Position numbers and translations under genes: made by a program. Shown piece after piece: positions 21,825 through 33,274 of a stretch of DNA of 37,355 nucleotides (the first letter of the stretch is position 1; each line of letters starts with the position of its first letter). Source of the DNA: Candidatus Poribacteria bacterium (lineage in GTDB: Bacteria > Poribacteria > WGA-4E > WGA-3G); the NCBI GenBank assembly GCA_021295735.1, contig JAGWBU010000036.1, positions 15,635 to 52,989 of the forward strand, given 5' to 3'. The notes beneath the pieces were generated by a model, which saw only the letters and a list, made by a program, of their open reading frames with translations, made no database searches and was not told the origin of the DNA.

Positions 21825-24800
21825 ATGCGACACATAAAACTCCTCGTTTGGCTCATCTTTATCCTATCCGGCGCGAGTGCCCTCATCTATGAAGTTATCT
21901 GGATGCGGCAACTGACGCTTGTCTTCGGCAGCACCGTCTTTGCGACAAGCACCGTGCTGACTGCATTTATGGCAGGACTCGCGCTGGGCAGCTTCTACTT
22001 CGGCAGAAAGATTGATGAGGGCAGAATGTCACCGCTGAAACTTTACGCCCTCCTTGAAGTAGGTATCGGTGGGTTTTGTATTATCTGGCCGCTGTTGTTA
22101 ACCGTCCTCACTGGTCTCTATGTCCTTATTTACCGCAACATTACATCCGAATTCTATACCCTCTCACTTATCCGTTTTGTCCTGACATTTGGCATATTAC
22201 TAATCCCTTCTACATTGATGGGTGGCACTTTACCTGTCCTGACACGGTTTTTTGTCAAAAGATTGGAACAACTTGGCACGAACATCGGAATTCTATATGC
22301 GTTGAATACGTTTGGCGCAGTCATCGGCACTGTGGCGGCAGGGTTTTTCTTGATTCAAGCATTGGGAATTACATGGACACTCCGAGTGGGAATTGCAATA
22401 AATCTCGGTGTTGCGTTAGTTGCATTGGTATTGGCACGGCATGCCCACAAAATAGAAACGGATGAAAACGAGGAGTCAATAGAACAAACAGAATCCGTAG
22501 CAGGTGAACAGGAAGCCGCAGTCCCTGAAGTTGTCAAACAAGAACGACAATTGGTTCTATGGGCGATAGGAATATCAGGTTTCTGTGCTTTAGCTTATGA
22601 AGTGTTGTGGACTCGTATTCTCGTATTCTTTCTTGGGAGTACGACTTATGCGTTTGCCACGATGCTCGCTGCGTTTCTTTTTGGAATTGCATTAGGAAGT
22701 ATAGTTTTAGCACGTTGGGTTGACAAGATAAAACAACCGGTTACCATTTTTGGCATCGTACAACTGGGTATTGGACTCTTCGCAATTGCCCTGATGCCCG
22801 CATTTGAGAGATTATATGGGATGACCTATGCACTCCAGTCAACATTCGGTAGTAGCAGATTTTGGGCATTCTTTTCCTGTTTCGTTGTGATGAGTCTTCC
22901 TACATTTTTGATGGGCGCAAGTTTTCCACTCGTTACAAAAATATATACCGGTAACGCGCGTCAACTCGGTAGGAGTATTGGCAATGTTTATGCTATTAAC
23001 ACAGTCGGAAGTATTTTGGGCGCGTTTTGTGCGGGGTTTTTGTTAATTCCACTATTAGGCATTCGTCCAAGTATTGTTTTAACAGTAGCATTGAACACAG
23101 GTATCGGGTGTCTGCTTGTTTTGAAAGGATTACGTACGTCTAAGGATGCTGAGATAGGTGAAACGGAATCAGGAAGCGGTGCCAAGTCTATTTTTCAAGG
23201 AATGGGCATCGCTGTGCCGATACTCAATATTGGGTTAGCTGTTATTTTATTATTGACTTTGAGTCAACCGCTTTTCAAAAAAAGCACGATTTATAAAACG
23301 CAACGCCCGGGCGATGAAGTTGTTGATTACAAGGAGGAAGTAGACGCGACGGTAACGACGTTGAAAGATGACGAAGGGATTTACCGACTCTATGTAGATG
23401 CGAATCAAGCCGCTGACGCTTCGCGGTGGGACTCTCCTTCGCACCGTGTTATCGCACATTTGCCATTGCTATTACATCCTAATCCGAAACGCGCACTTGT
23501 CGTTGGTTTTGGCATGGGACTCACTTCTCATTCAATAACGCAACATGGCGTGCAAGTTGATGCAATAGAGTTATCAAAAGGGGTGATTTCTGCAGCACAA
23601 GAACATTTCAAACATGTTAATGGCAACATATTTGAAAACCGACTATTTAACTATAAGATTAATGATGGACGCAACCATATCCTGATGACGCAAACCAAGT
23701 ATGAGCAAACGAAGTATGATATGATTTCTACTGGAATAATCCATCCGCTTGTGAGTGCTGGAAGTTCCAATATCTATACAGAAGACTTTTATAAGTTGTG
23801 TAAAAGAATCTTGACTGAGGGCGGTGTGATGTGTCAGTGGGTGCCGCTGCATCGTTTACCGGAGGCGCATTATAAGATGATTGTTCGTACATTTATCAAT
23901 GTATTTCCAGAGACAACCCTCTGGTATAAATACACACCCGATTTTGTGATTCTTATCGGCACACGGAAACGTCTCTCTATAGATTACGAAGATTTTATGG
24001 CACGTTGTCGGATACCGAGTATTCGTGAGGGGCTTGCTGCTGATGACCTTGATGGCATGTCGCTGCTTGACTCATTTATGATGGGACCAAGGGCAGTTCG
24101 AGAATATGCAAGTGATGGACCTATCCACACAGATGACAGACCCAGATTAGAATTCTTTAAAGGTGAAGATTTAGTGAGCTCTACCGCTAAAAATATTGAA
24201 GGAATGAAAGAATATCGGCAGCACGTTACACCGTTTCTAAGAAACTATGGTGCGACGTGGGAAGAGAAAAAAGCAGTTCAGGAAAAGATAGCTACCTACT
24301 TTAATGCCACACAGAAATTGATTCTTGGACAGATTGCTTATGCTAAAGCACAAATTGCCAATCCCGCTGCACAACTCGAAAAAGCGAGCACTTTGATGAA
24401 CGAAGCGGTGCGCGACAATCCGATTGACGAAACAATTCGCTACAATTTTGGGGTTGTCTCCGGCTTTATTAACGAAGGTTACCAAGAAGAACTCCGCCAA
24501 CTTGAAAAAGAAGCGCAACAGAACATGCGGCAAAATCCTGGCGATGTTCAAGTACATCTTCAATTGGCGACAGTGTATGAGCGTTATGCTTCAGAGTATG
24601 AAAATCTGGCGATGCAGTATGAGAGAAAGGGTGAACTTGAAAAGGCGACAACAGAACTTGAAAAGGCGACAACAGAACTTGCGAAAGCATCAACAGAACT
24701 TGAAAAATTACTCAAGCGCGATCCGAGCAGATCAGAAGTTTATCCTATTCTTGGTGCGTTATATGAACGTCAAGAACGTTACAAGGAGGCACTTCGCACC

Positions 24801-25121
24801 TACGAACGGTGGGAACAACGTGAACCTGACTTGCCCGAAATAATCTTCGCTGCTATGGCACGTCTTCACCTTGTATTGAATAATTTAGATGAAGCAAAGA
24901 AGTACGCACAAAAAGGTGTGGATGCTGATGAAAATGCGTGGCGCTCATTTTACATCCTTGGCAACGTCTATGCCGCTATGAATCAACCACAAAAACAGCA
25001 AGAGTACTTTACAACCGCACTAAAAAATATCGATCGAGCTATCCCTTATACCTCTGATCTAACAAACTTACAATTTGCTAAACAACAGATACAAAACGAA
25101 CTTAAAGAGATACAAAAATAG
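21825..25121 (+). CDS. membrane-bound spermidine-synthase-like protein with C-terminal TPRs
   Basis: The 1098 residues fall into four parts. Two homologous membrane modules (about 8-205 and 245-435) align well (SGASALIYEVIWMRQL with SGFCALAYEVLWTRIL; LMGGTLPVLTRFF with LMGASFPLVTKIY), so the region arose by internal duplication. A Rossmann methyltransferase/spermidine-synthase-like domain follows (about 500-760; GFGMGL at 561, Glu582, NDGRNH at 613). The remainder is TPR and coiled coil (about 800-1098). In true aminopropyltransferases the YDxIIxD motif supplies a catalytic Asp; here YDMISTG ends in Gly637, so polyamine synthesis is doubtful. Members of this fused family are known from many bacteria with no settled function. 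It lies 20 bases upstream of aspS, probably co-transcribed. Confidence 0.87.
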   Translation: MRHIKLLVWLIFILSGASALIYEVIWMRQLTLVFGSTVFATSTVLTAFMAGLALGSFYFGRKIDEGRMSPLKLYALLEVGIGGFCIIWPLLLTVLTGLYVLIYRNITSEFYTLSLIRFVLTFGILLIPSTLMGGTLPVLTRFFVKRLEQLGTNIGILYALNTFGAVIGTVAAGFFLIQALGITWTLRVGIAINLGVALVALVLARHAHKIETDENEESIEQTESVAGEQEAAVPEVVKQERQLVLWAIGISGFCALAYEVLWTRILVFFLGSTTYAFATMLAAFLFGIALGSIVLARWVDKIKQPVTIFGIVQLGIGLFAIALMPAFERLYGMTYALQSTFGSSRFWAFFSCFVVMSLPTFLMGASFPLVTKIYTGNARQLGRSIGNVYAINTVGSILGAFCAGFLLIPLLGIRPSIVLTVALNTGIGCLLVLKGLRTSKDAEIGETESGSGAKSIFQGMGIAVPILNIGLAVILLLTLSQPLFKKSTIYKTQRPGDEVVDYKEEVDATVTTLKDDEGIYRLYVDANQAADASRWDSPSHRVIAHLPLLLHPNPKRALVVGFGMGLTSHSITQHGVQVDAIELSKGVISAAQEHFKHVNGNIFENRLFNYKINDGRNHILMTQTKYEQTKYDMISTGIIHPLVSAGSSNIYTEDFYKLCKRILTEGGVMCQWVPLHRLPEAHYKMIVRTFINVFPETTLWYKYTPDFVILIGTRKRLSIDYEDFMARCRIPSIREGLAADDLDGMSLLDSFMMGPRAVREYASDGPIHTDDRPRLEFFKGEDLVSSTAKNIEGMKEYRQHVTPFLRNYGATWEEKKAVQEKIATYFNATQKLILGQIAYAKAQIANPAAQLEKASTLMNEAVRDNPIDETIRYNFGVVSGFINEGYQEELRQLEKEAQQNMRQNPGDVQVHLQLATVYERYASEYENLAMQYERKGELEKATTELEKATTELAKASTELEKLLKRDPSRSEVYPILGALYERQERYKEALRTYERWEQREPDLPEIIFAAMARLHLVLNNLDEAKKYAQKGVDADENAWRSFYILGNVYAAMNQPQKQQEYFTTALKNIDRAIPYTSDLTNLQFAKQQIQNELKEIQK
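24633..24716 (+). repeat. 21-base tandem repeat coding a heptad coiled coil
   Basis: Units start at 24633, 24654, 24675 and 24696; the first two are identical, the third differs at a few bases and the fourth is partial. They encode ELEKATT-type heptads linking TPR units of the spermidine-synthase-like protein. Whole-codon units keep the frame if the copy number changes. Confidence 0.85.
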
Positions 25122-25141: not shown

Positions 25142-27154
25142 ATGTCCCAAGAACCTTCTTTAAAACGGACCCACTATTGTGGTGATCTGCGTTTGAGTGA
25201 TGCTGGTACCACTGCCCAACTGAATGGCTGGGTGAGACGTCGCCGCGACCACGGCGGTGTGATTTTCGTGGATTTACGCGATAGAACTGGAATTACACAG
25301 GTAGTCTTCGACCCACAGATTGACGAAAAAGCACACGCGCTTGCAGATGCTGTCAGAAGTGAGTTTGTCCTAAATGTCAGCGGAACAGTCCGTGAACGTG
25401 CCCCGGGCGAACTGCTCTTCAAAGCAGATGCAGCATTCCAAGCGGAACTCTCCAATGGAACATCTTTGTCAACCGAATTGCGATCACTTTTTTCGGATTT
25501 AGATACAAAATACACACTGTCAGACAACATAAAAGTTGATGTTCGCGAGAATGACAAACGATGGCTTCTCACTGATGTGGAAAATAATAGAACTTACGAC
25601 ATAGAACGTGAAGCAGACAGTCTAAATATTTATCAAGGCACCGTGAATCCAGAGCTTGCCACAGGTGAGATTGAAATAGCGGTAGATTCGTTGAACATAC
25701 TTAATACTGCCAAAACACCACCGTTCCCAGTAGAAGACGAGATCGAGGTAGCAGAAGATATACGGATGCGTTATCGGTTTATCGATTTGCGGCGACCGGA
25801 GATGCAAAAAACGCTTGAAATGCGGCATAAAGCCGCCCTTGCAGCCCGTAACTATATGAATGAAGAGGGATTCCTTGAAATTGAGACACCTATCTTGATG
25901 AATAGCACACCAGAAGGCGCACGCGATGTTCTCGTGCCGAGTCGTTATTATCCCGGTAAATTCTATGCGCTTCCGCAATCGCCGCAACAGTTCAAACAGA
26001 TTCTGATGATGAGCGGAGTAGACCGTTATTTTCAAATTGCACGCTGTTTCCGCGATGAGGATACTCGCGCTGATAGACAACTTGAGTTCACACAACTTGA
26101 TATTGAGATGTCCTTCGCAGGTGTTGACGATGTGCTTGAGGTAACCGAAGGTCTGATGAAACGGATATTTGAGGAAGCTGGGAACATTTCTGTTGAAACG
26201 CCTTTCTTAAGGTTGCCCTACCATGAATCGATGGCACGGTTCGGCAATGATAAACCAGATACGCGATTTGGTATGGAACTTACAGACCTCTCCGATGTAA
26301 TGGCAGACTGTGATTTTCAGGTATTCACCCGTGCTCTGTCTTCCGGTGGACAAGTAAAAGGCATCGCTGTCCCTGGAGGGGCAGATTTTTCAAGAAAAGA
26401 TATTGACGATTTGACGGAGTTCGTTGCGACCTACCGCGCAAAGGGATTGGCATGGGTTAAGGTCACATCAGATGAATTCTCATCAGGTATTGTTAAGTTT
26501 TTCAAAACTGAGCAGCTCGAAACAGCACAAGAGAGAACGGGAGCAAAACCCGGAGACATAATGTTTTTTGTTGCTGACCGATCAAAAGTTGTTGCAGATG
26601 CACTCGGCAATCTTCGCCTACATCTCGGTCGCAAACTAAACCTGATTGATGAAGACCGTTATAACTTCTTGTGGATTGTGGATTATCCGCTGTTCGAATG
26701 GAATGAAGAGGAGAATCGATTTGAACCGTTCCATCATCTGTTCACGGGTGCAACAGAGGATACCTTACATCTGTTAGATACAGATCCCGGCAAGGTTCAG
26801 AGTCAACACTACGATTTGGTTTGCAATGGCTCAGAAATCTGTAGTGGGAGTGTTAGAATACATCAATGGGATATCCAACAGAAGATTTTTGATATTCTGA
26901 AGATTACACCCGAAGACGTTAAAAATCGGTTCGGCTATTTCATTGACGCTTTGGAATATGGCACGCCACCACATGCGGGGATTGCACCAGGGCTTGACCG
27001 TATTGTGATGTTAATGCGAAACGAGGAGAACATTCGCGAGGTGATTGCATTCCCAAAATCGCAACAAGGGCTTTGCCCACTTACCCATGCCCCATCTACT
27101 GTGACAGAGGCACAATTAGAAGAGTTGTCTATACGTGTAGATGTGGATGCGTAA
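25142..27154 (+). CDS. aspS: aspartyl-tRNA synthetase with an insertion in the anticodon-binding domain
   Basis: This class II synthetase charges tRNA-Asp (and tRNA-Asn if non-discriminating). The order is OB-fold anticodon-binding domain (about 22-190), catalytic core with motif 2 (FRDEDTRADRQLEFTQLD), the bacterial GAD insertion (about 330-450) and motif 3 (GIAPGLDRIVMLM). At 670 residues it is about 75 longer than usual. The excess lies at residues 90-166, between RERAPG and TVNPELATGEIEI, which are normally nearly contiguous. His37 in RRRDHGG resembles non-discriminating AspRS (His31 of the Pseudomonas enzyme), suggesting an Asn-tRNA amidotransferase pathway; this is inference. AGGAGG lies 13-15 bases upstream of the ATG. 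Confidence 0.97.
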   Translation: MSQEPSLKRTHYCGDLRLSDAGTTAQLNGWVRRRRDHGGVIFVDLRDRTGITQVVFDPQIDEKAHALADAVRSEFVLNVSGTVRERAPGELLFKADAAFQAELSNGTSLSTELRSLFSDLDTKYTLSDNIKVDVRENDKRWLLTDVENNRTYDIEREADSLNIYQGTVNPELATGEIEIAVDSLNILNTAKTPPFPVEDEIEVAEDIRMRYRFIDLRRPEMQKTLEMRHKAALAARNYMNEEGFLEIETPILMNSTPEGARDVLVPSRYYPGKFYALPQSPQQFKQILMMSGVDRYFQIARCFRDEDTRADRQLEFTQLDIEMSFAGVDDVLEVTEGLMKRIFEEAGNISVETPFLRLPYHESMARFGNDKPDTRFGMELTDLSDVMADCDFQVFTRALSSGGQVKGIAVPGGADFSRKDIDDLTEFVATYRAKGLAWVKVTSDEFSSGIVKFFKTEQLETAQERTGAKPGDIMFFVADRSKVVADALGNLRLHLGRKLNLIDEDRYNFLWIVDYPLFEWNEEENRFEPFHHLFTGATEDTLHLLDTDPGKVQSQHYDLVCNGSEICSGSVRIHQWDIQQKIFDILKITPEDVKNRFGYFIDALEYGTPPHAGIAPGLDRIVMLMRNEENIREVIAFPKSQQGLCPLTHAPSTVTEAQLEELSIRVDVDA

Positions 27155-27492: not shown

Positions 27493-29073
27493 ATGAATGA
27501 AAACCGAAATGGAAAGAGCGAACTTGGTATACTTTACGGTATTATTATCGCTATCATTGTTGGCGCACTTGTCGGTGGCTTATTCCCCGATTTTGCCGAA
27601 CACACACATATATTAGGTGATATCTTCTTAACATTGCTCAAGATGATAGTTGTTCCACTCGTTATCTTCTCTATGGTGGTCGGTATTACGAACTTAGGTG
27701 ATATCCGTAACCTCGGTTCTATTGGTGGACGCACTGTGCTTTACTATATGGCAACTACCGGCATCTCTGTCGTCATTGGGATGATTCTCGTTAACATCAT
27801 TGCCCCCGGAAAAGGGCTTTCATCGGGTGAAGAACTAACGAATGCAAACTATACGTTAAGCGGCACAGGTGATCTGACTGTTACATTGGACGGTCAAGTG
27901 ACCGGAAACTATACCGATAAATATGTCATCACACTCGACGATCAGAATGTGGTAGGCGAGATAAAATCTATTGATGGCAACACAGTCACTGTAGATCGAT
28001 GGCAAGTTTTATCAGATGATGTGGAATACATTGTAGCAGAGAGTGGTAACCTGTTAATGATCGATAACAAACAATTTAGTGATTTGGATTTGCAAGCAAC
28101 TGGTACCGGTGTTAAAATTTCCCTGCCAATTGCCTCAAAAGTTCAAGGTAAAGAGCAACGTACTATGGTTGGCACCATTATAGAGGTGTTCCTTGGGAAC
28201 AAAGAAACTGGGAAACAGGGTATGATTCCGTCAAACGTCTTCAAGGCGATGGCGAACATGGAAATCCTACCACTCATCTTTTTCTCACTGCTCATCGGTG
28301 CGGCTTTGTCAGTCATCGGTGAAGTAGGTAAACCCGCTATAGCTATTTTCCAAGCGTTTAATGAAGCTGTGATGCGGATTGTTAACTGGATCATGTTCCT
28401 TGCACCGGTAGGTATCTTTGGCTTAATAGCTGGTAGGATAGGAAAGGCGGACGGATTCGCTGGATTCTGGCCAGAATTAGTGGCTGTCGGAAAATATAGT
28501 GTTACGGTCATATTGGGGCTTGGCGTCCACGGTTTCATTGTACTTCCAGTGATGCTTCTCATTTTAGGAAGGCGAAACCCTTTCGGATACGCCAAAGGCG
28601 TGGGAACCGCATTGCTGAACGCGTTCTCCACAGCGAGTTCAAGTGCGACTTTGCCGCTCACTATGGAAGGTGTTGAAGAACAAAACGGCATCTCTAACCG
28701 TACTGCCAGTTTTGTTTTGCCATTAGGTGCTACCATTAACATGGATGGCACTGCGCTTTATGAAGCAGTCGCTGTTATGTTCATTGCACAGGTATATGCT
28801 ATACCAATGGGACCGGTGGAGCAAATAATTGTTGTGTTGACTGCAACGCTTGCCGCAATCGGTGCTGCAGGGATACCTGAAGCAGGACTTGTTACGATGG
28901 TTATTGTGCTAAATGCTGTTGGACTACCGATCGAAGGTGTCGCCTTGATACTTTCAATTGACTGGCTTCTTGACAGATTCCGCACCACCGTTAACGTTTG
29001 GGGCGACAGTGTCGGTGCCGGTATCATTGAAACTTATGAATCTGGAGATTCCGCAGAAGTTCCAGCGACTTAG
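27493..29073 (+). CDS. dicarboxylate/amino acid:cation symporter (DAACS family) with a periplasmic insertion
   Basis: This 526-residue inner-membrane Na+ or H+ symporter is GltP/DctA-like. Transport motifs are intact: HP1 serine-rich STASSSATLP, TM7 NMDGTALYEAV, HP2 AAIGAAGIPEAG and TM8 DRFRTTVNVWGD. The TM8 Arg fits acidic amino acid or dicarboxylate transport. Typical members have about 400-440 residues. The excess is a beta-rich segment at about 112-222 between TM3 and TM4 (TGDLTVTLDGQVTG, KYVITLDDQNVVGEI, DGNTVTVDRWQVL), predicted to face the periplasm and possibly forming a small barrel. AGGA lies nine bases before the ATG. The gene appears monocistronic, flanked by structured intergenic sequence on both sides. 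Confidence 0.95.
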   Translation: MNENRNGKSELGILYGIIIAIIVGALVGGLFPDFAEHTHILGDIFLTLLKMIVVPLVIFSMVVGITNLGDIRNLGSIGGRTVLYYMATTGISVVIGMILVNIIAPGKGLSSGEELTNANYTLSGTGDLTVTLDGQVTGNYTDKYVITLDDQNVVGEIKSIDGNTVTVDRWQVLSDDVEYIVAESGNLLMIDNKQFSDLDLQATGTGVKISLPIASKVQGKEQRTMVGTIIEVFLGNKETGKQGMIPSNVFKAMANMEILPLIFFSLLIGAALSVIGEVGKPAIAIFQAFNEAVMRIVNWIMFLAPVGIFGLIAGRIGKADGFAGFWPELVAVGKYSVTVILGLGVHGFIVLPVMLLILGRRNPFGYAKGVGTALLNAFSTASSSATLPLTMEGVEEQNGISNRTASFVLPLGATINMDGTALYEAVAVMFIAQVYAIPMGPVEQIIVVLTATLAAIGAAGIPEAGLVTMVIVLNAVGLPIEGVALILSIDWLLDRFRTTVNVWGDSVGAGIIETYESGDSAEVPAT

Positions 29074-29525: not shown

Positions 29526-31928
29526 ATGAACTCCCGAAACGACATAACTCCACGACAATCAGGCATTTCTGGCGAGACGGCTCTTGCAATCATTAGTGTC
29601 GCACTTGCTGCCTTATGGATAGCATTTGCCTTCTACCACGGCACGAGTCCCGATACAAATGGAAATCGGATACTGTTATTGCATCCGCTTGTTCCCATCG
29701 CGCTTATTGCGCTTCTCATCCGTATTTATCGGTGGGTTGACATTAAATTTGTCGTCCAGCTCGAAATCATTATGATTGGTCTCTGGCTCTTTGTTAGGAT
29801 GTTGGGAGTTTTGATGCCTTTCATCCTCGGTTTCGGATTTGCCTATCTCTTTCGGTTTCTGTGGCGTGCACTTCCATTCAAGAAGTATTACCAACGTGCG
29901 ATTGCGACTGTCTTAATCGTTCTTGTTTGTAGTGGTGTGTTAATTTTGACAGGCTTTCGGGTTAGCAATCAAGTAGGTCAGATGGCTAAAGGGTTACAGA
30001 AATTTTATCACGAATCATTATTGCCGTTAGTCGTAGGTGAGGAGTTTACGGCATTTGTAAGTGACGTTTCTGGTGAGACAGAAACCTTCTATCTTGGTAC
30101 GAACCATGGTATTTATTTTTATCAAATAAATAAAGATGTAGATGCTAATAAAGAAAATAAAGATGTAGATGCTAATAAAGAGAACACAGAACCCGAAAGA
30201 AACGGCATTACAAACGGTGAGCTTGTTGGAAAGCCAATTCAGACAATTGCTGTGAGTGATAAATTTATCTACGCTGGCACTAAAGGTGGGGTGTACCGAT
30301 GTAGTAAGAAAATTGTAAAGGTAGCAATGGGTGAGACAGAAGATTCCTTGATTACCCCAACTGAAGATTTGATATGGACAAAAATAAATGCCACACGTTT
30401 TGACAACCAATCTATTCAATCTGTTAACATACCATCATGGGATTCTTCGTTAATTTATGTTGGAACAGAAACAGGGCTTTATAAGGGAGTGTATACAAAT
30501 ACTGATTCAATAGAACAGTGGTCCCGAGTTGCAATTGATGGGGAGGAAGAAAGGCCTATTGTTAGTATTAATTCTATTGATAGATTTGAGAGGGCGCGCA
30601 GAACAAGATCTATTTATGTTGTTAGCACTACCCTAGAAAACAAAAAAACTGAGCAAGTAGTCCAGCAAACGGATCAGCAAAGAAAAACAAACACAAATGG
30701 TACTTCCCAATCTATTGATAACACAGAAGATACAGCACAAGATTCTACGAGTATAGAAAAAGAAATAGATGAAAGACCAAATAATGATGAAAAACAGGAG
30801 GAAATTACCACTGCCACTCTTGTCCATCGGCTTAGACATTCGGCGAATTCTGTTGCGATGGGATGGGAACCGTTAAATGAAGGTGATGTTCCTACGCAGG
30901 AAATTAAGATCCTTGCACCTACCGATAAGAGTGATATTAAACTCTACGCTGGAACAGTGGATGGGTTATATGAAAGATATGAACAGGGTAGTAAGGAAAA
31001 ATGGCGAAAAATGTCTGACTCGGATCGTCTTCCGAGATCCATTTCCCTGTTAGTTTCAGTGCCTTCTGGACTGTACGCGGGGAACAGTAGCGTTATTCAC
31101 CATAGTCCTAATAACACATCAGCATGGGAAAAATTTGCGCTTTCAGAACAGGGTATTTTGATCTATAGGGATGATCCGTATGTAAAACAGTTTCAAGAAT
31201 ATCTTACTAAGAAAATTCCTAGTTGGACAGCAAGTGGCGGTGCGTTTATTAGGTGGTTGTCAGGATTAGCTGGTTCCATTGCATTTCAGTTCGGTGGATT
31301 CATCGCGACTGTGTTCCTTGCATTCATTGTTTTTGTCTACGCAAGCCAAGGATTTGATAAATATTTCCGTGGTTTTATCAGTTTAGTTCCTGAAAAACAC
31401 CAGGAAACTGCTATGGCATACCTGCGGGAAATTGATAGAAATATGCATCAGTTTCTCAAAGGGCAATTTACTGTGATTGTAATTATTTCTATTATTTCTT
31501 GTATCGTCTATCGTATTATTGGCGTGCCCTTCGCGCTTCTTGTAGGCATATTAGCAGGACTCTGCAACGCAATACCTACTTTTGGTCCTTTCATTGGCGG
31601 TGGATTCGCTTACATTGCAATGTTGATGGGACTCGCCGCAAGCGATTTTAGTAGTACTGGGTTTCTCATCCGTTGTGTGTTTGTATTAGGTGCAATCCTC
31701 GGTATTCAGACAATTGACAATTCCCTTATTTCTCCGAAAGTGATGAGTAATGCTGTTGATGTCGATCCTTTGCTCATTATGTTCTCCGTTATAGTCGGTG
31801 CTTCTATTCTCGGTTTTTGGGGCGTCCTACTGGCAATCCCAATTATAGTTGTGATAAAATCTATCATTGCCGTTTCAAAATCTGCTGCAAATGATGCGGA
31901 CGCGCAACCCGCACAGGAGCCATCCTAA
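29526..31928 (+). CDS. AI-2E family permease with a large propeller-like insertion
   Basis: The 800-residue membrane protein has a normal AI-2E transporter frame (PF01594 type): N-terminal helices to about 148 and C-terminal helices from about 575. The characteristic GVPFALLVGILAGLCNAIPTFGPFIGG lies at about 666-692. Family members usually have 340-400 residues. About 370 extra residues (172-545) replace the usual loop and carry repeated YxGTxxGxY units: YLGTNHGIYFY (189), IYAGTKGGVYR (248), IYVGTETGLYK (310), LYAGTVDGLYE (473), a degenerate IYVVSTTLE (363) and LYAGNSSVIHH (516). This resembles a Ycf48/BNR-like beta-propeller, interrupted by a Gln/Asn/Glu-rich linker (371-430). The substrate is unknown. 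Its stop overlaps the der start by one base. Confidence 0.88.
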   Translation: MNSRNDITPRQSGISGETALAIISVALAALWIAFAFYHGTSPDTNGNRILLLHPLVPIALIALLIRIYRWVDIKFVVQLEIIMIGLWLFVRMLGVLMPFILGFGFAYLFRFLWRALPFKKYYQRAIATVLIVLVCSGVLILTGFRVSNQVGQMAKGLQKFYHESLLPLVVGEEFTAFVSDVSGETETFYLGTNHGIYFYQINKDVDANKENKDVDANKENTEPERNGITNGELVGKPIQTIAVSDKFIYAGTKGGVYRCSKKIVKVAMGETEDSLITPTEDLIWTKINATRFDNQSIQSVNIPSWDSSLIYVGTETGLYKGVYTNTDSIEQWSRVAIDGEEERPIVSINSIDRFERARRTRSIYVVSTTLENKKTEQVVQQTDQQRKTNTNGTSQSIDNTEDTAQDSTSIEKEIDERPNNDEKQEEITTATLVHRLRHSANSVAMGWEPLNEGDVPTQEIKILAPTDKSDIKLYAGTVDGLYERYEQGSKEKWRKMSDSDRLPRSISLLVSVPSGLYAGNSSVIHHSPNNTSAWEKFALSEQGILIYRDDPYVKQFQEYLTKKIPSWTASGGAFIRWLSGLAGSIAFQFGGFIATVFLAFIVFVYASQGFDKYFRGFISLVPEKHQETAMAYLREIDRNMHQFLKGQFTVIVIISIISCIVYRIIGVPFALLVGILAGLCNAIPTFGPFIGGGFAYIAMLMGLAASDFSSTGFLIRCVFVLGAILGIQTIDNSLISPKVMSNAVDVDPLLIMFSVIVGASILGFWGVLLAIPIIVVIKSIIAVSKSAANDADAQPAQEPS
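30129..30182 (+). repeat. 27-base tandem duplication inside the permease gene
   Basis: Units 30129-30155 and 30156-30182 differ only in the last base and encode NKDVDANKE twice. The duplication is in frame and lies in a linker between the first two propeller-like repeats. Confidence 0.85.
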
Positions 31929-33274
31929 TGCAAAACCAACTTCCTATTGTCGCTATTGTCGGTAGGCCTAATGTGGGCAAATCATCTCTCTTCAATCGCA
32001 TTACCGCAGATGCTCGTCAAAGTTCTGAACATCCGAAGCGGATTGCTGTCGTTAATGATAGACCCGGTGTAACGCGCGATCGTAACTATGCAGATGTAAA
32101 GTGGGGTAAAACACCTTTTACGATTGTTGATACAGGCGGACTGGACGTTGATCCCGAGGATCCACTTATTGATAACGTCCAGATGCAAGTAGACCATGCC
32201 TTATCTGAGGCAACACTCGTTCTGTTTGTCGTTGATGTTCGGACTGGTATTATGTCTCACGACATTATTGTTGCAGATAAACTACGTGCTTCTGGAAAAC
32301 CTATTCTCCTTGTTGCGAATAAGGCAGATAGTGTCAGTCTTGAAATGGACACGGCGGAATTTTATGCACTCGGATTGGAAGAGCCAGTTTTGACTTCATG
32401 CGTACAAAATATAGGTGTCCGTCAACTTCTTGACCAAGTTGTGGAAACTCTCCCTGAAGTTGATGACACATCAGAACCTGCTTCCGAACCCATCAAAATC
32501 TCAATTGTTGGCCGTCCGAACGTCGGAAAATCCTCGATCCTCAATTCTCTTCTCGGTGAAGAACGTATGATTGTGGATAACCGCCCCGGTACTACTCGCG
32601 ATGCTATCAATATCCGATTCGTATATCAAAATATTCCTTTTGAACTTGTTGATACTGCAGGAATGCGGCGAAAATCTTCAATTAAAGATGAATTGGAATC
32701 TGAGACAGTCCAGCGTGCAATTCACAGTATCCGTCAAAGTGACATCGCTGCGTTGGTATTAGATGTTACACAGGATGTGGCGCAGCAAGACAAAACAATC
32801 TCGAGTTTTATTGCACGTAACGGGAAAGCATCTGTGCTGGTTTTAAATAAGTGGGACCTCGTTGAGAAGGACAACGCAACCCACGGTGAATTTATGTCGC
32901 AAATCTCATTTCAGGTTCCACAATTAGACTATGTTCCCAAAATTTTTGTTTCCGCTTTAACAGGACAACGCGTTTCAAAAATCCTTGATGTTGCGCTTGA
33001 CGTTCATCGCGAGTATTGCACCCGCATACCAACGCCAGCGCTCAACGAACTCTTGTTAGAGTTACGAACAGCACATCCACCGCCGCGTGTAAAAGGCACA
33101 CGCCCAGCGTTGAAATATATGACGCAGGTTGAGACGCAACCACCGACTTTTCTGATTTTTGGTAGAAATACACACAGAGTTCGTCCTCCTTATACTGCTT
33201 ATTTGATTAACAATATTCGTAGCACCTTTGGATTTCACGGCACACCGATCCGCATCTTTTATCGGAGAAATTAA
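31928..33274 (+). CDS. der: ribosome-assembly GTPase Der (EngA)
   Basis: The 448-residue protein has two tandem G domains and a C-terminal KH-like domain, unique to Der, which acts in 50S subunit assembly. G domain 1 has GRPNVGKSS (12-20), DTGG and NKAD. G domain 2 (about 193-360) has [18 protein letters not shown] and NKWD. The KH-like part has [31 protein letters not shown]. Domain 1 carries a short extra segment in switch I ([22 protein letters not shown]). The ATG shares its A with the permease stop (TAATG), so the two genes are translationally coupled. Length is normal. Confidence 0.97.

Follow-up and report, generated by a model that had tools for sequence, protein, structure and literature searches.

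The stretch of DNA analysed here (the window, 37,355 nucleotides of contig JAGWBU010000036.1 from assembly GCA_021295735.1 of a Candidatus Poribacteria bacterium) encodes an 800-residue protein of the AI-2E transporter family with a beta-propeller built into a loop of its membrane core. This architecture is real and looks new; to our knowledge, bacterial transporters carrying a whole folded propeller in a core loop are rare. We somewhat favour the reading that this is an inner-membrane transporter whose extracytoplasmic loop has been replaced by a whole six-bladed Asp-box-type propeller that serves as a recognition domain. The family, the fold, the position of the insert, its conservation, the insert-less orthologues and the faster evolution of the propeller come from sequence and structure prediction, and from these we infer the side of the membrane, a crown of propellers and the recognition role. 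A propeller mounted on a transporter would be a candidate device by which this phylum of sponge symbionts reads its surroundings.

Membership of the AI-2E family, as proposed in the initial annotation, is borne out by the match to PF01594 (AI-2E_transport; E-value 6.3e-45, 154.2 bits against a curated cut-off of 34.3), which is split into two stretches, the better one covering residues 577-782, with no Pfam family above its cut-off between them. The frame had been described as intact and coupled to der, and it is indeed open from 29526 to 31928 with zero internal stops, its stop codon sharing one base with the der start at 31928. The motif GVPFALLVGILAGLCNAIPTFGPFIG in the C-terminal core, which following that annotation we take to be typical of the family, is largely invariant across the 18 sequences of our alignment (A1). 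Hydropathy analysis delimited ten segments in the whole protein, an extra hairpin included, those of the N-terminal part lying at residues 18-36, 49-67, 81-99 and 126-144. The loop at residues 100-125, just ahead of the last helix before the insert, holds five K/R and no D/E and is placed inside by the positive-inside rule, therefore the insert would lie outside. TqsA of Escherichia coli (PDB 7nb6, an entry with five chains) was the only transporter among the PDB sequence matches; its chain residues 143-328 align with query residues 588-786 beyond the insert (E-value 9.9e-5), and residues 11-131 with query residues 73-193 ahead of it (independent E-value 65, not significant alone). Thus, from the alignments on either side, the insert seems to take the place of the short loop that links core helices three and four on the outside, and this loop most likely faces the periplasm, outside the inner membrane. 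Its location between membrane helices, claimed earlier, holds: it follows the third core helix, and the PF01594 match resumes after it.

The propeller-like domain of about 370 residues first noticed at 30039-31160 corresponds to residues 172-545, in agreement with strands predicted at 174-539. Five or six YxGTxxGxY repeats had been reported in it; we counted four strict copies and, with a looser pattern written after the sequence had been inspected, six matches over five blades (two overlap in the last blade, none falls in blade 4), and neither count was equalled in 20,000 shuffles of the insert. The Gln/Asn-rich linker was located at residues 372-430, with 24% N+Q. An AlphaFold2 model of the full-length protein, built on 18 aligned sequences, reached a mean predicted local distance difference test score (pLDDT) of 57.3, with 24 of the 37 ten-residue blocks of the insert averaging 71-86; it returned blades, and disorder was confined to residues 206-221, 264-279 and 372-426, where pLDDT drops below 50. 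The more compact insert of a relative (L044, 349 residues), modelled from the same 18 loci, came out fairly confidently, at pLDDT 76.7 with a predicted template modelling score of 0.77, and shows 23 strands plus one two-residue strand, which we group as six four-stranded blades of one predicted propeller. Disorder in place of blades is ruled out by the strands predicted in both models. Within the low-confidence loop of blade 1 (30129-30182) the nine-residue unit NKDVDANKE is doubled, L031 having about one copy.

Comparison of the models with the PDB by Foldseek gave 345 matches for the full-length protein and 446 for the insert at E-values of at most 0.001; propellers head the 50 matches listed per query, among them NUP43, the GH74 protein 6p2k and the sensor BT4673, with template modelling scores normalised by the insert of 0.20-0.54 among the matches listed. 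A profile of the insert (A2), which draws on no structure, retrieved 19 PDB sequences at E-values of at most 1, each match covering one or two blades; the four below 0.001 are a BNR glycosyl hydrolase (1.5e-5), two BT4673 entries (1.7e-5 and 1.8e-5) and 6p2k (5.9e-5), and the rest, going by their names, are presumably GH74-type enzymes and sortilin. In L050, a relative from another family of the phylum, the repeats are well kept (GLYSSTDRGATW) and phmmer finds 6p2k at an E-value of 5.7e-9; the Asp-box SxDxGxTW is plain to the eye there (YSSTDRGATW), with PF02012 below its cut-off, and degenerate in the window copy. Pfam Sortilin-Vps10 matches in L048, L050 and L047 also stay below cut-off. The alignment of the insert in 18 sequences holds 29 invariant columns, including Y150, G152, T153, W144, W167 and W320 of L044. 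Taken with the models, these matches make the insert a predicted beta-propeller in which repeated four-stranded blades close a ring.

The domain is conserved in related genomes, a point that the initial annotation had proposed to check. The host is a member of Candidatus Poribacteria, and all 17 named loci with relatives of the protein (L031-L047) come from Poribacteria assemblies and share the order symporter, AI-2E gene, der. When 84 genomes of the phylum were searched with the window protein (some rows of this search carry one stop codon within the match), matching open frames of at least 680 residues were found in 53 of the 58 genomes assigned to f1, the family of the window, by our count from the result table (the frame of G027 has 681). 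Among the remaining five, G031, G032 and G067 carry pieces at contig ends or on separate contigs, part of the insert included, and G029 and G076 gave no match to the window AI-2E protein. In the same order as f1, the insert is present in the two f2 genomes and in three genomes of the f3 genera g5-g7, one of them truncated by a contig end; the six f3 genomes of g8 showed a distant AI-2E paralogue only, and the three f4 genomes have AI-2E frames of 464-498 residues without it. Twelve more distant genomes (G001-G012) comprise ten with insert-less AI-2E frames of 275-664 residues and two without a match; 20 distant regions were read directly, the others being judged by frame and match pattern. Outside the phylum, we chose 60 genomes from 204, mostly ones already matching, as a sample; 59 of the 60 have PF01594 matches (the control was found in 13 of 14), and among the matches listed from these 59 there was no internal insert of propeller size. 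Nearly all of those matches run uninterrupted along PF01594, a few spanning part of the profile only, and the biggest visible internal excess is about 70 residues (G150, G162); in long frames of 578-920 residues (G111, G210, G220, G131) the match is likewise uninterrupted and the extra length lies outside it. Among the genomes sampled, the insert was seen only in Poribacteria. In the single paper of the literature searched that contains both words, AI-2E and propeller occur in unrelated contexts, and nothing on such proteins was listed for Poribacteria with propeller, autoinducer or miniature inverted-repeat.

The locus itself provides a natural comparison. The order symporter, AI-2E gene, der is found with the propeller in G016 (L050/L114) and without the insert in G025 (L054) and G026 (L055), while G005 (L057) has the insert-less AI-2E gene followed by der; der was not found in the regions read of G014, which has the propeller, G012 and G024. 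The order being shared by insert-bearing and insert-less genomes, one locus exists with and without the propeller. The proteins of L054, L055 and L057 are 443-465 residues long with only a short stretch in the loop, their C-terminal core is 51-58% identical to that of the window protein, and the tblastn pieces on these loci end at window residue 167-171 and restart at 547-559. On a tree of 26 proteins, each represented by 126-254 residues of its C-terminal part, the propeller label needs two changes. Judged from this core tree, a single origin of the insert is compatible with the data, one gain and a gain plus a loss being left unsettled. The locus thus presents a natural series, from no insert through an ordered Asp-box propeller to a worn one, along which comparison can test how a transporter gains a regulatory or recognition domain.

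The propeller has diverged faster than the core. Against 17 relatives, identity to the window protein is 64-92% in the core and 36-83% in the insert, and nonsynonymous divergence (dN) from the window is between 1.5 (L031) and 12 (L033) times higher in the insert than in the core. The ratio of dN to synonymous divergence (dS) in the insert is 0.28-0.42 in five close pairs (window-L031, 0.083/0.196; L033-L034, 0.22/0.57; L035-L036, 0.16/0.47; L038-L039, 0.15/0.47; L040-L041, 0.12/0.43). On these coding sequences, the propeller evolves fast yet under constraint. When the window and L031 are compared with L033 and L034, dS is 0.36-0.71 in the core versus about 2 in the insert; in 150-base bins, identity of the window to L033/L034 is 0.87-0.95 at 29551-30000, 0.51-0.69 at 30001-31200 and 0.83-0.90 over the rest of the AI-2E gene, and to L031 it is 0.82-0.94 over the same span. 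Since the dS contrast could reflect misalignment at 41% identity, the comparison was redone on fourfold-degenerate codons within stretches where four or more consecutive residues are identical. Eight pairs picked from the resulting table, which share lineages and are non-independent, were put to Fisher tests; the uncorrected p values are low for L031-L033 (17/25 versus 55/175, p 0.0006), L031-L034 (p 0.004), L044-L047 (p 0.009) and window-L031 (p 0.003; here the insert is closer than the core), and not significant for L033-L034 (0.55) and L035-L036 (0.31); in most other pairs insert and core agree. These patterns are suggestive, not conclusive, of a propeller that moves by recombination, the insert looking as if it had been replaced in one clade.

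We propose that a six-bladed Asp-box-type beta-propeller has taken over the position of the loop joining core helices three and four and would face the periplasm. It may derive from a BNR-type propeller gene that stood on its own: the insert profile finds free BNR-like frames (321-363 residues, e.g. G000 C59 with 342) in the six genomes searched, a plausible donor pool. By homology with TqsA, five propellers could form a crown above the membrane pores, where the propeller would meet a variable partner such as a small ligand, a glycan, an envelope protein or a hostile agent, and contact with this partner might govern how substrates reach the transporter, or where it sits and how active it is. 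Sensing of a ligand or protein that controls the pore, the function suggested initially, remains a hypothesis of this kind. LuxS (PF02664) was absent in all 84 Poribacteria genomes, in a search that detected its control in 5 of the 14 known genomes used. This makes AI-2 an improbable substrate, and the family name is no guide to the true one; export of autoinducer-2 is accordingly disfavoured. A bolder version, which we regard as doubtful, makes the periplasmic five-propeller crown a swappable recognition head which, in the manner of a variable receptor, would diversify and pass from one lineage to another on a nearly constant channel. If true, one conserved transporter would be tuned to changing ligands, or would escape hostile agents that use it as receptor.

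A fast and perhaps exchangeable periplasmic propeller on a conserved channel would fit recognition better than docking to a fixed partner, and the main rival is that the propeller is a tolerated passenger, a domain that arrived by gene fusion in a loop accepting insertions and plays little or no part in transport. We consider this only a tentative alternative. The same loop does receive other inserts, namely an element of 64-75 residues in the paralogue of L060 and L061 and ahead of the propeller in L048 and L049, that element also lies inside the propeller of L029, f7 relatives have (by eye) a different stretch in the loop, the insert evolves fast and the f4 orthologues lack it; against a mere passenger stand the long frames kept open in 53 of 58 f1 genomes, the dN/dS values well under 1 and the invariant columns that include blade positions. 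That the propeller is instead a docking platform for a fixed envelope partner, such as the cell-wall or division machinery, seems to us rather unlikely. Some other AI-2E proteins, PerM for instance, have been associated with the envelope, propellers of the WD40 and BNR types often serve for docking, WD40 proteins are plentiful among the Foldseek matches listed and the gene adjoins der at every named locus; a fixed partner, however, would be expected to hold the surface constant, yet insert and core of window and L033 are 41% and 92% identical, and linkage to der occurs also without the propeller (G025, G026, G005), while the regions that were read in G014, G012 and G024 do not show it.

A GH74- or BNR-type enzyme acting on a substrate before or after transport would be most improbable. 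The closest PDB sequence relatives of the insert do include GH74 enzymes and a BNR glycosyl hydrolase, and the NCBIfam model F510_1955 glycosylhydrolase matches L050 at an E-value of 5e-17, but with 61.9 bits against a cut-off of 175; every propeller family score is below cut-off, and the active site of GH74 enzymes lies between two propellers of seven blades each, as opposed to the single domain of six predicted blades found here, so that a catalytic GH74 enzyme is not favoured. An artefact of frameshift, misassembly or chimera has next to no probability, and nothing was found in its favour. The same architecture recurs in independent assemblies, including the single-contig G045 and G081 and the chromosome record OX639992.1, and no stop interrupts the window frame, upholding the earlier view that no frameshift is involved; nor do the insert-less homologues point to an assembly chimera, since they come from Poribacteria families other than that of the window, sit at the same locus wherever it could be seen, and are not near relatives.

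Several observations weigh against a recognition propeller as we propose it. Relaxed constraint could also account for the fast evolution of the insert, in the closest pair (window-L031) dN of the insert exceeds that of the core just 1.5-fold, and the fourfold-site contrast is not significant for window-L033 (p 0.076) and window-L034 (p 0.057). The upstream symporter gene reaches an identity of just 0.68-0.88 in all three comparisons (L031, L033, L034); the insert is thus not the only part of low identity. Pfam, run on the window insert alone, retrieved no propeller family, only PH_16 below its cut-off (E-value 0.086); the case for the fold therefore comes from structure, profile and relatives. 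Confidence in the full-length model is low, with pLDDT of 32-69 in the ten-residue blocks of the membrane part, and it fixes neither the orientation of the propeller nor the oligomer; all topology is deduced indirectly.

Among known systems, TqsA shares the membrane core and the PF01594 profile with the window protein; at 344 residues and with a short loop it differs from the latter, with its propeller of 375 residues and, at the N terminus, an additional hydrophobic hairpin. AI-2 exporters proper, with a TqsA-like function, imply AI-2 made by LuxS in the same organism, an enzyme absent from the 84 Poribacteria genomes. Asp-box/BNR propellers (GH74 6p2k, the BNR protein 3b7f, sortilin, Ycf48) resemble the insert in sequence and fold matches, including a weak one of L050 to the Ycf48 model PRK13684 (E-value 0.079), and L050-type relatives keep their GLYSSTDRGATW-type repeats. 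GH74, sortilin and Ycf48 propellers have more blades than six, whereas the window protein has a single six-bladed domain within a transporter, its Asp-box worn; in this it would differ, according to the models, from the two-propeller GH74 xyloglucanases. The extracytoplasmic propellers of the hybrid two-component sensors BT4673 (3ott/3va6) and BT4663 (4a2m) are alike in the A2 profile match of the former and the fold matches of both. Sensors of this type are kinases with several propellers and a similar YxGTxxGL-type repeat; the membrane part of the window protein, in contrast, is a transporter. The insert-less Poribacterial orthologues L054, L055 and L057 share locus and core and differ in their length and short loop.

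Table 1. Features of the AI-2E locus in the window (blade limits are our reading of the predicted strands).
Feature	Position	Strand	Basis or remark
AI-2E-family protein with propeller insert, 800 residues	29526..31928	+	open frame; PF01594, E-value 6.3e-45
N-terminal membrane part, residues 1-170: extra hydrophobic hairpin, first core helices, amphipathic stretch	29526..30035	+	hydropathy
Beta-propeller insert (predicted), residues 171-545 (about 375 residues)	30036..31160	+	strands and pLDDT, Foldseek, profile search
Blade 1, residues 174-227 (YLGTNHGIY)	30045..30206	+	predicted strand positions
Blade 2, residues ~240-286 (YAGTKGGVY)	30243..30383	+	three predicted strands and a two-residue one; limits approximate
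Blade 3, residues 297-335 (YVGTETGLY)	30414..30530	+	predicted strands
Blade 4, residues 345-449, split by linker	30558..30872	+	predicted strands
Gln/Asn/Glu-rich linker within blade 4, residues ~371-430	30636..30815	+	pLDDT <50 at 372-426; composition
Blade 5, residues 460-495 (YAGTVDGLY)	30903..31010	+	predicted strands
Blade 6, residues 508-539 (YAGNSSVIH)	31047..31142	+	predicted strands
C-terminal membrane core with GVPFALLVGILAGLCNAIPTFGPFIG	31161..31925	+	PF01594 stretch 577-782
Upstream neighbour: SDF dicarboxylate/amino-acid symporter	27493..29073	+	conserved synteny; own insert
Downstream neighbour: der (EngA) GTPase	31928..33274	+	one-base overlap
In-frame element in aspS (25142-27154), residues ~90-164	25409-25633		between anticodon-binding OB fold and catalytic domain

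A segment of about 70-75 residues recurs in frame in unrelated Poribacteria proteins, aspS of the window included. A profile of 12 rows gave 11 matches in nine open reading frames of the window's genome (two were profile rows) and 41 in G015; at E-values of at most 1e-5 the element occurs in 77 of 276 genomes, that is in 77 of the 84 Poribacteria and in none of the 192 others, and Pfam gave no family match for the 12 rows (best E-value 0.023, for one row). Twelve of 18 other Poribacteria have an aspS without the segment, with abutting matches at residues ~3-89 and 165-668, while G028, G013 and G016 match through the element, G002 matches in the second part only and G005 and G017 yield fragments; L092 was compared as a filled site with L096 and L098 as empty ones. 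The G015 copies lie in frames resembling (by eye) sigma-54, an ABC ATPase, a BamA-like protein and others, many of them preceded by LLFS. Local DNA matches between these copies (L117-L146) are mostly 64-81% identical over the longer stretches, the few pairs above 95% reflecting duplication of the host gene or one place retrieved two times. The DNA consensus of 30 of them has CTGTTTAG near its left end and CTAAACGTTTAC near its right, and the ends pair in the predicted fold. Among AI-2E proteins the element lies in the loop of the paralogue (L060, L061), ahead of the propeller in f2 (L048, L049) and inside the propeller of L029 (G015) at residues ~336-398. From its sequence it looks like a mobile in-frame coding element, the nearest known thing being the Rickettsia palindromic elements. 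The stretch in the AI-2E loop of the class-level f7 relatives (L062-L065) is different, some having by eye a pattern like LASGAAVTPETLxRLRAAGVE.

The upstream SDF symporter has, at 27832-28218 (residues ~114-242), 129 residues between two helices where its best PDB relative, 9bgz, has 17; this extra stretch falls inside unbroken matches in relatives, including L110, L111 and L114. Since the adjacent symporter and AI-2E genes each have a big extra stretch in a loop, two neighbouring transporters carry a large loop insertion. Elsewhere in the window (21825-25121), a 1098-residue open reading frame combines an MFS-like membrane part, a spermidine-synthase domain and TPR repeats.

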